64,000 nucleotides of DNA from Methylomarinum sp. Ch1-1 (GTDB taxonomy: Bacteria; Pseudomonadota; Gammaproteobacteria; Methylococcales; Methylomonadaceae): NCBI RefSeq assembly GCF_030717995.2, contig NZ_CP157743.1, positions 1,240,001 through 1,304,000 of the forward strand. The letters are read 5' to 3'. Shown piece after piece: positions 9,690 through 63,641 of the stretch. Within the stretch, counting starts at the first letter, position 1, and every line of letters begins with the position of its first letter. A program made the position numbers and the translations under genes. Under the pieces are notes generated by a model. That model saw only the letters and a list, made by a program, of their open reading frames with translations. It did not search any database and was not told the DNA's origin.

Positions 9690-10679
9690 ATGAAGTTACA
9701 GCAGTTGCGCTATTTGTCTGAAATACAGCGTCAGCAATTAAACATCACCAAGGCGGCGGCCAGTCTCTGCACGTCGCAATCCGGGGTTAGCAAGCAGATC
9801 CAATTGTTGGAGCAAGAGTTGGCTATCCAACTGTTCAGGCGTAAGGGCAAACATCTCGTGGCATTCAGCGAGGTCGGTGAGGAAGTCTTGCAATTGGCCC
9901 GTGAAGCCCTCAGTAAGGTTGACGATATCCGCCAGTTGGCGAAAGAAGCCAATCAGCAAAACCAGTCTCTGATCATCGCCACGACCCATACACAGGCTCG
10001 CTATGTGTTGCCGGCGATAGTCAGCCAATTCATGCGGTGTTATCCCGATATCAATCTTCATATTCATCAGGGCACGCCGACTCAGGTCGCCGCGATGCTG
10101 GAGCGGGGGGAGGCCGATATCGCGATCGCCACCGAAGCGTTGTCCGGGCGGGAAGGCTTGTTGGCGCTGCCGTGTTATCGTTGGGGGCGCAGTATCATTA
10201 CCCAGAAGCATCATCCCTTGGCCGCGCAACGCTCCGTCACGCTGGAAGACATCACTCAATATCCGATTGTCACCTATGTGCAGGGATTTACCGGTCGTTA
10301 TATGTTGGACGAAGCCTTTGCCAGGCATCAATTGCAACCGGATATCGTGTTGACCGCGGTCGATGCCGATGTGATCAAAACCTATGTACGGTTGGGATTG
10401 GGTATCGGCATCATAGCCGATATGGCGTTCAGCCGTGAGCAAGATAAAGACCTTGAAACACTGGATGCAACGGCGTTGTTTGGCGTCAGCACTAGTCGGC
10501 TTGCGATCAGAAAGGACAAGTATCTGAAAGCCTATCTGTTTCGCTTCATCGAAATGTTCGCCCCGCACCTGTCGGTCGACGTCGTCAAGCAGGCCTTGGC
10601 CTGCGCCAATGACGAACAGGCGCAAGCCTTATTGGCTGATTTTTCGGTGCCTCTGTATCAATCCCTGGCGGAGCGCTGA
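9690..10679 (+). CDS. cysB: CysB-type LysR family transcriptional regulator
   Basis: A LysR-type activator of 329 residues. The N-terminal helix-turn-helix (MKLQQLRYLSEI, SQSGVSKQIQLLEQEL) is close to E. coli CysB, as are the effector-domain blocks IATTHTQARYVLP, HQGTPTQVAAML, ADIAIATEAL, TYVQGFTGR and TAVDADVIKTYVRLGLG. CysB controls sulfate assimilation in response to O- or N-acetylserine. This copy is divergent from a TauE/SafE permease, its likely target, and probably represses itself. The 94-base intergenic region is very AT-rich, as CysB sites are. The stop codon abuts the first copy of a tandem repeat. Confidence 0.93.
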   Translation: MKLQQLRYLSEIQRQQLNITKAAASLCTSQSGVSKQIQLLEQELAIQLFRRKGKHLVAFSEVGEEVLQLAREALSKVDDIRQLAKEANQQNQSLIIATTHTQARYVLPAIVSQFMRCYPDINLHIHQGTPTQVAAMLERGEADIAIATEALSGREGLLALPCYRWGRSIITQKHHPLAAQRSVTLEDITQYPIVTYVQGFTGRYMLDEAFARHQLQPDIVLTAVDADVIKTYVRLGLGIGIIADMAFSREQDKDLETLDATALFGVSTSRLAIRKDKYLKAYLFRFIEMFAPHLSVDVVKQALACANDEQAQALLADFSVPLYQSLAER

Positions 10680-10983
10680 AATAATGCCGTTAAGGAAAGC
10701 GGCCATCCGCTAGCTTGCTCCGCGGGACGCTGTAAACACATCCCTGTGCGCTTGGGGTCGGCTCCTGCCTCCCACACCCGCGGTTCAAGCCAGCGGATAC
10801 CCTATCATAGCCTCTGTTGGAGCGAAAAAACTGATATTCAGGAAACGCGGGATTTGATTGGCGAGGATGTCGGGCGGCAGGGAGTCCGCCGTCCAGCCGC
10901 CAAGTATGGGTTTACCCCGCACCTAAATTCCATGGCTTTTGGCTATATTTACATTCCAGGATAGTTTAGGTGCGGGGTTCTCT
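10678..10983. repeat. Composite repeat unit, tandem copy 1
   Basis: About 305 bases, beginning at the cysB stop codon and repeated nearly exactly at 11037-11343 with a 359-base period. It contains motifs shared with other repeats in the window (gtaaac-catccctg, ggcgaggatgtcgg, gggtttac) and ends with the small inverted-end element at 10914-10978. It encodes no recognisable protein; short frames within it read repeat sequence. Confidence 0.85.
10914..10978. repeat. Small inverted-end element, copy 1 (type A interior)
   Basis: A 65-base stretch with inverted ends (accccgcacctaaa and its complement) and an interior containing ttccatggct, ctatatttacattccagg and ata. The same interior is found in the copies at 11276 and, reversed, at 63016. 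It has no coding capacity and resembles a miniature inverted-repeat element. Confidence 0.8.
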
Positions 10984-11036
10984 CGGCAGATACAGCCCCT
11001 TGCCTGCGACAAAGTTGAGCAAAGCTTCGGACCGCA

Positions 11037-11343
11037 GAAATAATGCCGTTAAGGAAGGCGGGCATCCGCTAGCTTGCTCCGCGGGACGCTGTAAACACAT
11101 CCCTGTGCGCTTGGGGTCGGCTCCTGCCTCCCACACCCGCGGTTCAAGCCAGCGAATACCCTATCACAGCCCCTGTTGGAGCGAAAAAAAAGCCTGATAT
11201 TCAGGAAACGCGGGGTTTGTTTGGCGAGGATGTCGGCGGCAGGGAGTCTGCCGTCCAGCCGCCAAGTATGAGTTTACCCCGCACCTAAATTCCATCGCTT
11301 TTAGCTATATTTACATTCCAGGATAGTTTAGGTGCGGGGTTCT
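11037..11343. repeat. Composite repeat unit, tandem copy 2
   Basis: Second near-identical copy of the 10678-10983 unit. After its inner element it continues into ctcctcgacagac-like sequence and caaactgggaattgct (to about 11411), which matches, in reverse orientation, the composite repeats at 38316 and 62950. The region 10680-11501 holds no gene that I can support. Confidence 0.85.
11276..11340. repeat. Small inverted-end element, copy 2 (type A interior)
   Basis: Same 65-base element as at 10914, with a few substitutions in the interior (ccatcgcttttagc). The inverted ends are intact. Confidence 0.8.
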
Positions 11344-11501
11344 CCGCGTTCCTCGACAGACGCTCCCCAGACCCTAAACACCGCTAAAACGCTCAAACTG
11401 GGAATTGCTGGGGGTTAGGCATGGAGTGGAATCCATGCGGATAAAGTGGTACAGTTCAGCTCTTGTTATCAGTCATTTGTCAAAATATTGACGATCAATC
11501 C

Positions 11502-35253: not shown

Positions 35254-35356
35254 GCCGAGTTCGGTATAAGGTAACTATTCAGCTTGATTTACTATCAATT
35301 GCTTGTGGAAGAAGTGTGTGCGACAGGGATGTCGCATCCAAGCCTATAGGGGCATA

Positions 35357-35429
35357 TTCACCCAGCACCTAAATTCCATAGGCTAATAGCTGCGATAAAT
35401 CATCTTCGTTTATTTAGGTGCTGGGTGAA
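35357..35429. repeat. Small inverted-end element, copy 3 (type B interior)
   Basis: 73 bases with perfect 18-base inverted ends, ttcacccagcacctaaat. The interior begins like type A (tccatagg) but then differs (ctaatagctgcgataaatcat, cttcgttt). It lies in the 228-base gap between the nucleosidase-like gene and sirB. The sequence to its right (ggcgtcttctg) also flanks the copy at 43767. Confidence 0.88.
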
Positions 35430-35481
35430 CGGCGTCTTCTGTAGCAAGTAACGGATAGAAAAGAGTTTTGATGCTGAATGG

Positions 35482-35838
35482 TTAAATAAATCCTTGCTTC
35501 GTGATGGCGATGACGAAAATTAAGATAAAACTAGCGACTGCCGCGGCAAAGGCCAGCCAACGTTTATTGCCGCTGCTGCGCATCGTCATGATGGCAAACG
35601 CTATGTACAGCACCAGCACGATCAGTTTACTGATGATCCAGCCATATTCGCCCGCCAACCAGTTGCCTTGAAACACCAATGCGATGCCGCTCAGCAACAG
35701 CAGCGTGTCGATGATATGCGGAGCAATTTTAAACAGCTTACGTTGCAATAGCTCCGCGTTAAATTGCAATAATGCGACCCGACCGATAAAACTGGAGAAA
35801 GAGGCGAGGATAAAAAAAACATGGATCAATTTGAGCAT
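35482..35838 (-). CDS. SirB2-like small membrane protein
   Basis: 118 residues with four membrane helices. KLIHVFFILASFSSFIGRV, APHIIDTLLLLSGIALVF and WIISKLIVLVLYIAFAIM are typical of the SirB/SirB2 family, which is associated with invasion-gene regulation in Salmonella but without a known activity. It stands downstream of lexA and the small ORF, on the same strand, 53 bases after that ORF. Confidence 0.88.
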   Translation of the reverse strand: MLKLIHVFFILASFSSFIGRVALLQFNAELLQRKLFKIAPHIIDTLLLLSGIALVFQGNWLAGEYGWIISKLIVLVLYIAFAIMTMRSSGNKRWLAFAAAVASFILIFVIAITKQGFI

Positions 35839-38165: not shown

Positions 38166-38315
38166 GGTGGTGACTGCTGACTAGAAAAATCAATGAGTCT
38201 ATCTAACAGTCGCTGTTGCCGTCAATCGCAGGACTCCCTCATTAAAAAATACCTGAACTAACACAGGGGGTTGGTTAATATGGTTAATATCGCGTCATCC
38301 CTCTGGGGCGGGGCC

Positions 38316-38460
38316 AGCAATTCCCAGTTTGAGCATTTTTGCTGTGTTTAGGGCATGGGATGTGTCTGTCGAGGAGCGCCGTAAACCCATCCCTGGGGGC
38401 TTGACGGCAGCATCCTTGCTGCCGACATCCTCGCCAAACACACCCCATGCCCTTTTTGAA
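38316..38460. repeat. Composite repeat, copy without the small inverted-end element
   Basis: 145 bases from agcaattcccagttt to ctttttgaa, with an inner hairpin (cggcagc/gctgccg at 38405-38424). It is about 90% identical to 62950-63178 apart from the small element, which is absent here. The surrounding stretch 38166-38821 has no supported gene. At 38698-38727 a hairpin (ggcggctt/aagccgcc) and further GC-rich inverted sequences lie downstream of dolP and may end its transcript. Confidence 0.85.
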
Positions 38461-38821
38461 CTCCAAATTGATGATATGGACTCCTCTGGAGCGGGGCGGG
38501 TTATTTAACCCGCCCCCGATATCGGTCTTGGGCCACACAAATTCGCGTAGACAAGGGTGCATTGCATGCACCATTTTTGAATCTCGTTAAGGTCGGTGTT
38601 TTCGGTGCATAAAATGCACGTCTGGCGGGAACGTGAAGCGCATCAAAAACCGGTGCGCTTCCTCTCGTCAGCACACCCTACCCGCACCGTAGCATCGTAG
38701 GGCGGCTTCGCGAAGCAAGCCGCCAAAAACCGCCACAGGGGCAAAATTGGCCATTGTGCGTATCCAGGCGGATTGCCTGGCGGCGAATCCACCCTGTTGC
38801 GATGCCAATGTAGCCTTGCCG

Positions 38822-43219: not shown

Positions 43220-43226
43220 GGCCGCC

Positions 43227-43579
43227 GAGTTGGCCGAACAGTCGCTGTTTTATTGCAAAATAAAGCGGAGGAAAGTCCGGGCTCCATAGGGCAGGGTGCC
43301 AGGTAACGCCTGGGAGGCGCAAGCCTACGGAAAGTGCCGCAGAAAATATACCGCCCCTCACCTAACGCTAGGTGAGGGGTAAGGGTGAAATGGTGTCGGT
43401 AAGAGCGCACCGCGCCGCTGGCAACAGCGGTGGCAGGGTAAACCCCACCCGGAGCAAGATCAAATAGAGGAGCAGACGCGCGGCCCGCGCGGTTCCCGGG
43501 TAGATTGCTTGAGCCGTGAGGTGACTTGCGGCCTAGATGAATGGCTGTTCAAGACAGAACCCGGCTTATAGGCCAACTC
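43227..43579 (+). ncRNA. rnpB: RNase P RNA, class A
   Basis: Catalytic RNA that trims tRNA 5' ends. Outer helix arms gagttggcc (43227) and ggccaactc (43571-43579) close the molecule. Universally conserved blocks are gaggaaagtccgggctcc (43268-43285), the following catagggcagggtgcc and, at the 3' side, acagaacccggcttat (43554-43569). A variable stem is present as perfect 10-base arms cccctcacct/aggtgagggg (43354-43379), replacing the longer E. coli counterpart. A TATAAT sits in front. The RNA may extend a few bases past 43579. Confidence 0.96.
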
Positions 43580-43766
43580 TTTCTTTGTGCTGATCGACGT
43601 TTACGCCATGCCGCTTATCTTTGATGTTAGGGAGTGAAGCGTTAAGTTATATAGTTATATTGTAATGGTATGAATAGGGATCGAGTGTGAAAAACAATCG
43701 TAGCTATTCGGCTTGGCATTGAGAAAATATTTCCTTGACTATCAGTTGCCTGTCCCAGAATACGCC

Positions 43767-62922: not shown

Positions 62923-62949
62923 CGGAGCGCTGCGGCAGACTGTTAATCC

Positions 62950-63178
62950 AGTAATTCCAAGTTTGAGTATTTTTGCGGTGTTTAGGGCATGGGGAGTGTC
63001 TGTCGAGGAGCGAAGTTCATCCAGCACCTAAATTATCCTGGAATGTAAAATATAGTCCAGTAGCCATGGAATTTAGGTGCTGGGTAAACCCATCCCTGGG
63101 GGCTTGACGGCAGCATCCTTGCTGCCGACATCCTCGCCAAACACACCCCATGCCATTTTTGAAAAACTGGGAATTGCT
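62950..63178. repeat. Composite repeat, copy containing the small inverted-end element
   Basis: Starts ccagtaattccaagttt and ends aaactgggaattgctcc, an inverted pair. It matches 38316-38460 on both sides of an additional small element at 63016-63088. The gap 62923-63182 is entirely this repeat. Confidence 0.85.
63016..63088. repeat. Small inverted-end element, copy 5 (type A, reverse orientation)
   Basis: ttcatccagcacctaaatt and aatttaggtgctgggtaaa bound an interior that is the reverse complement of the type A interior at 10914 (atcctggaatgtaaaatatag, then agccatgga). It lies between gaggagcg and taaacccatccc of the composite repeat. Confidence 0.85.
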
Positions 63179-63182
63179 CCTG

Positions 63183-63641
63183 TTAATCCTTCTGAGTTGA
63201 CAGTCTGTCCAGCGTCTCACTGAGCCTTAACAGCGCTCTATTCAGGCGATCGTCGCTTTGCTGCATGCCTTGCTGACGAATCAATTCTATATTTTTTCGA
63301 CACGGTATTTTAACGTTGGACGGGTGTTCATCGGCTATTTGCTGAGGGGTTACCTTGATCTGCAGCGTTTCGATGCCGCGATAACCATGCTCATGTAACT
63401 GGCCGAGGATGGTCTGCTGATAGAAGCGCAACTGCGATGACCAGATAGCCGAATCGGTATACAGTAGGATTTTCTTCCCGCTAAGCACACAATGCAAGGC
63501 ATGATCGGCAAGTTGTGCCGGTATTGCCGACTTGATCAGTGCGAGCAGTTGTGTTTGCTGGTTAATTTTATGTTGATAAATAGTGAATAATCGTTGAGGA
63601 TAATTCAGAACCGACTTGAAAGATTGGGATTGCTTAGGCAT
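63183..63641 (-). CDS. DUF721 family protein, probable DciA-type helicase operator
   Basis: 152 residues. The C-terminal-like fold ADHALHCVLSGKKILLYTDS, AIWSSQLRFYQQTILGQL and LQIKVTP is the DUF721 pattern; the rest is low-complexity and charged. In bacteria lacking DnaC or DnaI, DciA assists DnaB loading; in gammaproteobacteria the gene after lpxC is commonly of this family. It is convergent with lpxC across a repeat block. Confidence 0.85.
   Translation of the reverse strand: MPKQSQSFKSVLNYPQRLFTIYQHKINQQTQLLALIKSAIPAQLADHALHCVLSGKKILLYTDSAIWSSQLRFYQQTILGQLHEHGYRGIETLQIKVTPQQIADEHPSNVKIPCRKNIELIRQQGMQQSDDRLNRALLRLSETLDRLSTQKD

Follow-up and report, generated by a model that had tools for sequence, protein, structure and literature searches.

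Insertion sequences that target REP palindromes have been described, among them IS1397, ISKpn1, IS621 and ISPpu9/10 (excerpts of PMC1525189). In Coxiella, IS1111, which recognises a GTAG palindrome, has a preferred site inside the MITE QMITE2 (excerpts of PMC10969869). The Correia/NEMIS elements of Neisseria (107 and 155 bp) are MITEs in which an internal segment of about 50 bp may be present or absent (excerpts of PMC2229807). Among the pneumococcal repeats BOX, RUP and SPRITE, BOX is modular, with optional self-folding boxB modules (excerpts of PMC3049150). The locus described here resembles these systems in part: a small element has a specific insertion site inside an abundant palindromic MITE, and the MITE exists with and without it. 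The guest, however, is 65 bp long and non-coding and its hosts are MITEs of several families, whereas REP-targeting insertion sequences have their own transposase and REP hosts, and IS1111 is a full insertion sequence rather than a MITE within a MITE. The excerpts on Correia/NEMIS do not describe the internal segment as an independent transposon that has ends and a duplication of its own, and those on BOX, RUP and SPRITE describe no fixed insertion site inside another repeat. Among titles and abstract openings in PMC, with subscription literature outside the scope, we found no description of such elements in methanotrophs.

The window (the whole stretch of 64,000 nucleotides that was analysed) contains the larger repeat in an occupied and an empty form. 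By its structure, the repeat at 62949-63179 can be classed as a MITE: its ends are CAGCAATTCCCA and its target duplication is 9 bp long; we call its family family 1. The features of the two forms were as follows.

62940-62948, no strand: left copy of the 9-bp target duplication of the larger MITE, CTGTTAATC
62949-63179, plus strand: larger MITE of family 1, occupied, with ends CAGTAATTCC... and ...GGGAATTGCTC
63016-63019, plus strand: TTCA, left neighbour of the small element, read as an altered target tetranucleotide
63020-63084, plus strand: small element E, 65 bp, terminal inverted repeats (C/T)CCAGCACCTAAAT and ATTTAGGTGCTGGG
63085-63088, plus strand: TAAA, right copy of the target tetranucleotide
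63180-63188, no strand: right copy of the 9-bp target duplication, CTGTTAATC
38315-38460, plus strand: larger MITE of family 1, empty, with GATGATATGGACTCCTCT (38470-38487) in place of the right terminal repeat
38382-38385, plus strand: single TAAA, the unoccupied target site, in the context gaggagcgccg-TAAA-CCC

The occupied composite is palindromic and lies between an ORF and a second, convergent ORF, which, judging by their sequence, look lpxC-like and DUF721-like, respectively. An earlier, sequence-only reading had stated that the two composites match on both sides of an insert of 73 bases. The match held, with the arms of 62948-63163 and 38314-38460 being 86% (76 nt) and 94% (89 nt) identical when the insert was excluded, but the insert resolved into the 65-base element plus TTCA and TAAA. 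The empty composite was continuous as claimed, with its single TAAA. A 24-mer of the element had three matches in the window with 0-1 mismatches and a 23-mer of the right arm had four with 0-3 mismatches, where shuffled sequences would be expected to give none. The element at 63020-63084 reads TCCAGC...GCTGGG (consensus, CCCAGC...GCTGGG), and this copy has aag where most other copies read ccg. Both composites folded much better than shuffled sequences (z = -6.4 occupied, -6.7 empty). The composite had no Rfam match above the gathering score and was not assigned to a known RNA family. GATGATATGGACTCCTCT was also found at the right end of further family-1 copies.

Other copies in the window were the following.

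11277-11339, minus strand: element in the reverse composite (11212-11410), neighbours TTTA/TTCT on the plus strand
10915-10977, minus strand: element in a partial composite, tandem-duplicated with the element at 11277-11339
35271-35485, minus strand: family-3 MITE, occupied, one end GTAACTATTCAG, the other end degenerate
35361-35425, minus strand: element with core type B in the family-3 MITE, flanks TTCA/TGAA
43768 to about 43820, plus strand: truncated element after a family-3 left arm and TTCA, with left arm and core and without right arm

The reverse composite therefore carried an element, as the sequence-only reading had said. The elements at 11277-11339 and 10915-10977 are not independent, because both belong to a tandem duplication of about 360 bp (10669-11344, 96% identity) that includes the occupied composite. 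A bacterial RNase P RNA of class A lies at 43226-43584 (Rfam RF00010, 346 bits), near the truncated element.

We surveyed the genome of the window (4.77 Mb, three contigs). By lpxC, its closest named relatives are Methylococcaceae and kin, so the organism is probably a methanotroph of the Methylococcales. The element end had 389 matches with at most one mismatch (control, 0), and the junction pattern GTCGAGGAGCGCCGTNNACCCA had 159 with at most two mismatches (reversed control, 0). As expected of a MITE, the 65-bp element is short, non-coding and present in high copy number, with 14-bp terminal inverted repeats (CCCAGCACCTAAAT). A catalogue was made from 128 stretches, comprising the window, 400 kb of contiguous sequence around it and 107 hit-centred stretches of about 1 kb. 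The order left arm, element, right arm was found 58 times, the same order with the element inverted 4 times, and left arm joined to right arm without the element 55 times; partial and compound forms were also present. The ratio of 58:55 is no population frequency, because the short stretches were chosen by hits; the contiguous part held about ten occupied and fourteen empty copies. These copies agree with the proposal that the element inserts at a preferred site or is lost precisely. Among 92 intact elements, three core types (A, B and C) were recognised, in both orientations. At each end of 67 unique 61-mers, the outer 12 columns had 1.78-2.0 bits and the core went down to 0.24 bits, although part of this constancy was built in by the search, which permitted no more than one mismatch in each outer 11 bases. 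Conserved ends would fit an enzyme that reads the ends.

The insertion site was G(C)CG^T(G/A)AA. Its position within the core was constant across at least four MITE families, which differ in their arms. Two of them, families 2 and 3, share GTAACTATTCAG ends, and family 4, with the left arm GGTTCGGTAACTCGCTTGACAGGACGCCG, was represented by one empty copy and one occupied copy that was without the usual right side. Empty copies read GGGACGCG-TGAATAC in family 2, GACGCCG-TAAATATG in family 3 and GACGCCG-TGAATACATCC in family 4. Core type C was shared by families 1 and 2, and type A by families 1 and 4 as well as chimeras, indicating that core type does not track MITE family. When four empty cores were folded in silico as single strands, the target tetranucleotide was predicted to be unpaired or nearly so, which suggests that a hairpin may be recognised at the target site.

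TTCA preceded 79 of the 92 elements in this genome and TAAACCC followed 61 of them. A direct 4-bp repeat was found at 2 of 91, so the flanks there give little indication of recent insertion. One guess is that TTCA at the left, in this genus, arose by a fold-back correction that would lengthen the inverted repeat.

The larger repeat had its own target duplications. At least 8 of 9 bases were repeated outside the ends in 31 of 42 empty copies (shuffled mean, 0.7) and in 27 of 33 occupied copies (shuffled mean, 1.0), i.e. in 58 of the 75 copies with both terminal inverted repeats; the other 42 of 117 copies, in which an end was not recognised, were excluded. The 9-bp duplications of both forms indicated that occupied and empty MITEs had each moved as units to many places.

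The sequence-only reading had seen no transposase in the window and proposed that an enzyme acts in trans. None of the listed PF13808, PF01609 and PF01797 matches falls inside the window, and a likely enzyme was found for the larger repeat. This is a DDE_Tnp_1 insertion sequence of the same genome with ends CAGCAATTCCCAATTTAAAACC and 9-10-bp duplications. Its transposase scored 25.8 bits against DDE_Tnp_1 (cut-off, 23) and 19.8 against the NCBI IS4 model, far under the cut-off of 152. Uninterrupted frames of 439 aa were present at C2:2961879 and 522201, and several other copies were interrupted or frameshifted. Two relatives with 57% identity had CAGCAATTCTCAATTTA ends and 9-bp duplications. 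The family-1 MITE agrees with the ends of this candidate autonomous partner over the outer 12 bases and partly further in. Thus, judging by the matching ends, the family-1 MITE is most likely moved by the DDE-transposase insertion sequence with CAGCAATTCCCA ends. Like IS-derived MITEs in general, the family-1 host has its ends and 9-bp duplication in common with an insertion sequence of the genome; nothing in it is unusual except the copy number and the docking site. Plasmids gave no match to the candidate insertion sequence.

ISAs1 was considered as the family-1 partner and rejected, as the sole PF13808 match above the cut-off was just inserted in the right arm of a composite. That ISAs1-type insertion sequence, with its own ends, a 10-bp duplication CCAAACACAC and a 373-aa frame (PF13808), lies inside the right arm of an empty composite (L227/L239, G000:C2:1869540-1873544). 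In family-1 copies at ten loci (L020, L140, L141, L152, L181, L184, L192, L196, L198 and L205) and in the window at 38470-38487, GTGATGATATGGACTCCTCT or a near match replaces the right terminal repeat; L181 is partly an exception, as it retains the right end. In L239, GTGATGATATGGACTCCTCT runs into an ORF that, by eye, we take to resemble an IS110-type transposase, so an IS110-like element seems to target the end of the family-1 MITE.

Among 151 genomes of the family, 11 had the element end pattern. They included the genome of the window, a single other species of its genus, out of five (7 matches), six species from another genus, g11 (26-254 matches each) and one g17 genome (7 matches). Single matches in two more genomes were, by sequence, not paired elements. 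Eighty lpxC loci of relatives held no core module, and six weak element-end matches there were not paired elements. In the sister species G005, all three family-1 copies examined were empty, with TGAACCC or TAAACCC at the site, and none of five elements had a direct 4-bp repeat. In seven g11 and g17 genomes, a direct 4-bp repeat flanked 34 of 63 elements, part of which came from loci selected by a TTCA-containing pattern. In contiguous 400-kb stretches of three g11 genomes, the counts were 9 of 19 (G041), 10 of 21 (G063) and 0 of 1 (G015), the repeated bases being TGAA, TTCA, TAAA or TTTA. Nine of the ten remaining G041 elements differed by one base between the flanking tetranucleotides. The target duplication that the sequence-only reading wanted defined is thus 4 bp in the related genera and mostly absent from the window's own genome (TTCA...TAAA). 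The 16 bases on each side of the elements in the 400-kb stretches were mostly MITE core, indicating that the target is one site and not random TGAA. Empty and occupied sites per 400 kb numbered 41 and 19 in G041, 24 and 22 in G063, and 58 and 1 in G015 (G015:C1:1434001-1834000). G015 either escaped the spread of the element or lost nearly all copies.

The genomes G041, G063, G080, G094 and G015 are collinear, with about 89-96% identity over the 16 kb compared. Of 111 mapped pairs between G041, G063 and G015, 101 failed an orthology filter on length or identity because of other sequence differences nearby, and 10 passed. These ten mappings represented six distinct pairs: three with the element in G041 and the same MITE without it in G015, three without the element on both sides, and none with it on both. 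A fourth G041/G015 site, 3190590, was clean in alignment and failed the length filter; the other three were 3187942, 3279015 and 3283549. At all four sites the gap was exactly 69 bp (65 + 4) and the flanking alignments were 97-99% identical. The four bases left in G015 were TTCA, TAAA, TGAA and TTCA. At 3190590, TAAA stood on both sides of the element and at the empty site, and elsewhere TTCA or TGAA was found twice, so the duplicated tetranucleotide tracks the target sequence. These sites and the 34 of 63 elements above support a 4-bp target duplication for the small element. At 3279015, G063, G080 and G094 had no MITE, G015 had the MITE only, and G041 had the MITE and the element. At 3283549, the MITE-bearing stretch was missing in G063, G080 and G094 too, within a longer difference. 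In another pair (G041 L354 and G094 L297), the same MITE had three differences in about 465 columns outside the core, and the cores were very different and in opposite orientation. Seven of 11 alignments called occupied/empty by script (five G063, two G015) were dropped on inspection, as the MITE was absent or the MITEs differed.

Together with the empty and occupied copies of further MITE families, the four orthologous sites bear out the proposal of insertion or loss. The element was not limited to one frame of reference in all genomes, and occupied and empty sites were both found beyond one duplication, so descent of all occupied copies from a single duplicated repeat did not hold up. The nesting, the fixed site, the 4-bp repeats, the orthologous presence and absence and the replacement of cores can all be seen in the sequences, and the best reading of the small element is a tiny MITE with other MITEs as its targets. 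We put a probability of roughly 0.78 on the reading that it is a MITE with 4-bp duplications that inserts into the core of other MITEs and travels with them. It would be a non-autonomous 65-bp transposon in which a variable core separates 14-bp terminal inverted repeats (CCCAGCACCTAAAT). A transposase acting in trans, probably a DDE transposase, would insert it with a 4-bp target duplication at TGAA or TAAA. Structure prediction places this tetranucleotide in an unpaired loop or bulge of the core module that several otherwise different MITE families have in common, and the loop structure may be what is recognised. The larger palindromic MITEs would have mobilising enzymes of their own; for family 1, the most likely source is the DDE-transposase insertion sequence with CAGCAATTCCCA ends. 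The element could then spread both by inserting into empty MITEs and by being carried along with an occupied MITE as it moves, and recombination and conversion among the many copies would reshuffle cores, orientations and half-elements. We infer that insertion rather than loss made most occupied sites.

Precise loss would leave the same junctions as insertion. In that case the element would be an ancestral module of the MITEs, and empty copies would arise by hairpin-assisted slippage between the 4-bp repeats, which would delete the palindrome together with one of the repeats. The element forms a strong palindrome, is often flanked by direct repeats in other genera and sits at the same place in several families. 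G015, with 58 empty sites and one element in 400 kb, was the element-less side at all four clean sites; as these differences all run one way and the cores are unlike, a general loss in G015 would fit too. In the window's genome, however, the flanks are mostly TTCA...TAAA and not direct repeats, though empty copies are abundant. Empty sites also exceed occupied ones in G041 (41:19) and G015 (58:1) and are about equal in G063 (24:22), and different cores and orientations at one orthologous site require gain or replacement. We therefore consider ancestral presence followed by loss unlikely. It is a more serious possibility, though one that we lean slightly against, that the mosaic in the window's genome came mainly from homologous recombination or gene conversion among hundreds of near-identical MITEs rather than from transposition. 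A tree was built from 110 family-1 copies after excision of the element. Its branch support was low throughout; the occupied/empty state needed 40 changes on it (shuffled mean, 36.5), and 468 of 500 shuffles needed as few. Three sets of identical arms were found in both states. The element state had no association with 21 polymorphic columns (mean r2 0.006, smallest p 0.11), and left-right arm column pairs had a mean r2 of 0.023, with 2 of 90 at p < 0.001. The presence of the element is thus no more tied to the arms than the arms are to each other, and with arm-arm linkage so weak, an unlinked element state is also expected from recombination. Seven elements with an identical type-C core sat in arms that did not cluster together. 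Four chimeras (L131, L156, L014 and L172) have halves from different MITE families joined at the small element, indicating that recombination does occur. Yet some linkage persists across the element, as in those 2 pairs, and none with the element itself, and conversion is unable to create 4-bp duplications or the first occupied copy of a family. In the window's genome, contributions from transposition, from loss and from conversion are all conceivable.

The sequence-only reading had suggested looking for a REP-associated partner of the RAYT type. A Y1 transposase of the IS200/IS605 or RAYT type could carry the element as a passenger, with TTCA on the bottom strand as the target and TGAA/TTCA as the right cleavage site, and the genome has 15 Y1_Tnp matches. 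The unpaired or nearly unpaired target predicted in four MITE cores would suit such an enzyme. IS200/IS605 elements make no target duplication and have a constant right cleavage site, so that a Y1 right end should keep its own sequence. At G041 3190590, by contrast, both tetranucleotides are TAAA, like the empty target; the duplicated tetranucleotide follows the target, unlike in an IS200/IS605-derived element. The element was also found in both orientations, and no element end lay within about 1.5 kb on each side of the 15 Y1 loci, so the search for this partner came up empty and a REP/RAYT system was not seen. We regard a Y1 enzyme as improbable. An enzyme shared with the larger MITE, since both repeats start with CAGCA, is the least credible source of movement. 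Family-1 copies at L007:4057-4195 and L128 end exactly at the right end of the element with a 9-bp repeat, which starts at the inner end CAGCACC. These two cases are explained by deletion between 8-11-bp repeats TGCTGGGT(AAA), which are common to the element end and to the MITE end plus its duplication; use of the element end as a MITE end was dropped, as such a deletion probably made them. The element duplication elsewhere is 4 bp, against 9-10 bp for the insertion sequence.

For the small element, then, the enzyme proposed to act in trans was not found. About 1.66 Mb of contiguous sequence from four genomes and other loci held no autonomous relative with the element ends: eleven pairs of ends lay 300-4000 bp apart there, and the one pair with a matching 4-bp repeat was an element interrupted by about 310 bp. 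In the 30 DDE_Tnp_1 loci examined, out of 59, no gene was bounded by element ends. IS1380 was set aside as the partner: five g11 genomes and one g17 genome, in which the element has direct repeats, were searched and contained none. Plasmids and viral contigs yielded neither the composite nor the element with its flanks, and an exact-pattern search for the paired ends was also negative there.

The nested repeats offer a clear example from nature of one bacterial MITE transposing site-specifically into others, and at one orthologous locus the empty, MITE-only and complete stages can all be seen. Nesting would explain the layered growth of composite palindromic repeats and points to a transposase with strong target choice. 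With up to hundreds of sites per genome, the system is countable for gain, loss and exchange of hairpins. The odds are about even, in our estimate, that the element is a specialised hyperparasite, i.e. a miniature transposon that regularly targets nothing but the core hairpin of other miniatures, at its loop or bulge, and rides several transposases. The empty cores would then be docking sites for gain, loss, flipping and replacement as species diverge.

Elements also occur in altered forms in g11. At L361, L363 and L365 (G041) and at two places in G063, a second small element replaces one arm of the first. At L349 (6700-7073), an interruption of about 310 bp within an element left its TTCA repeats intact.
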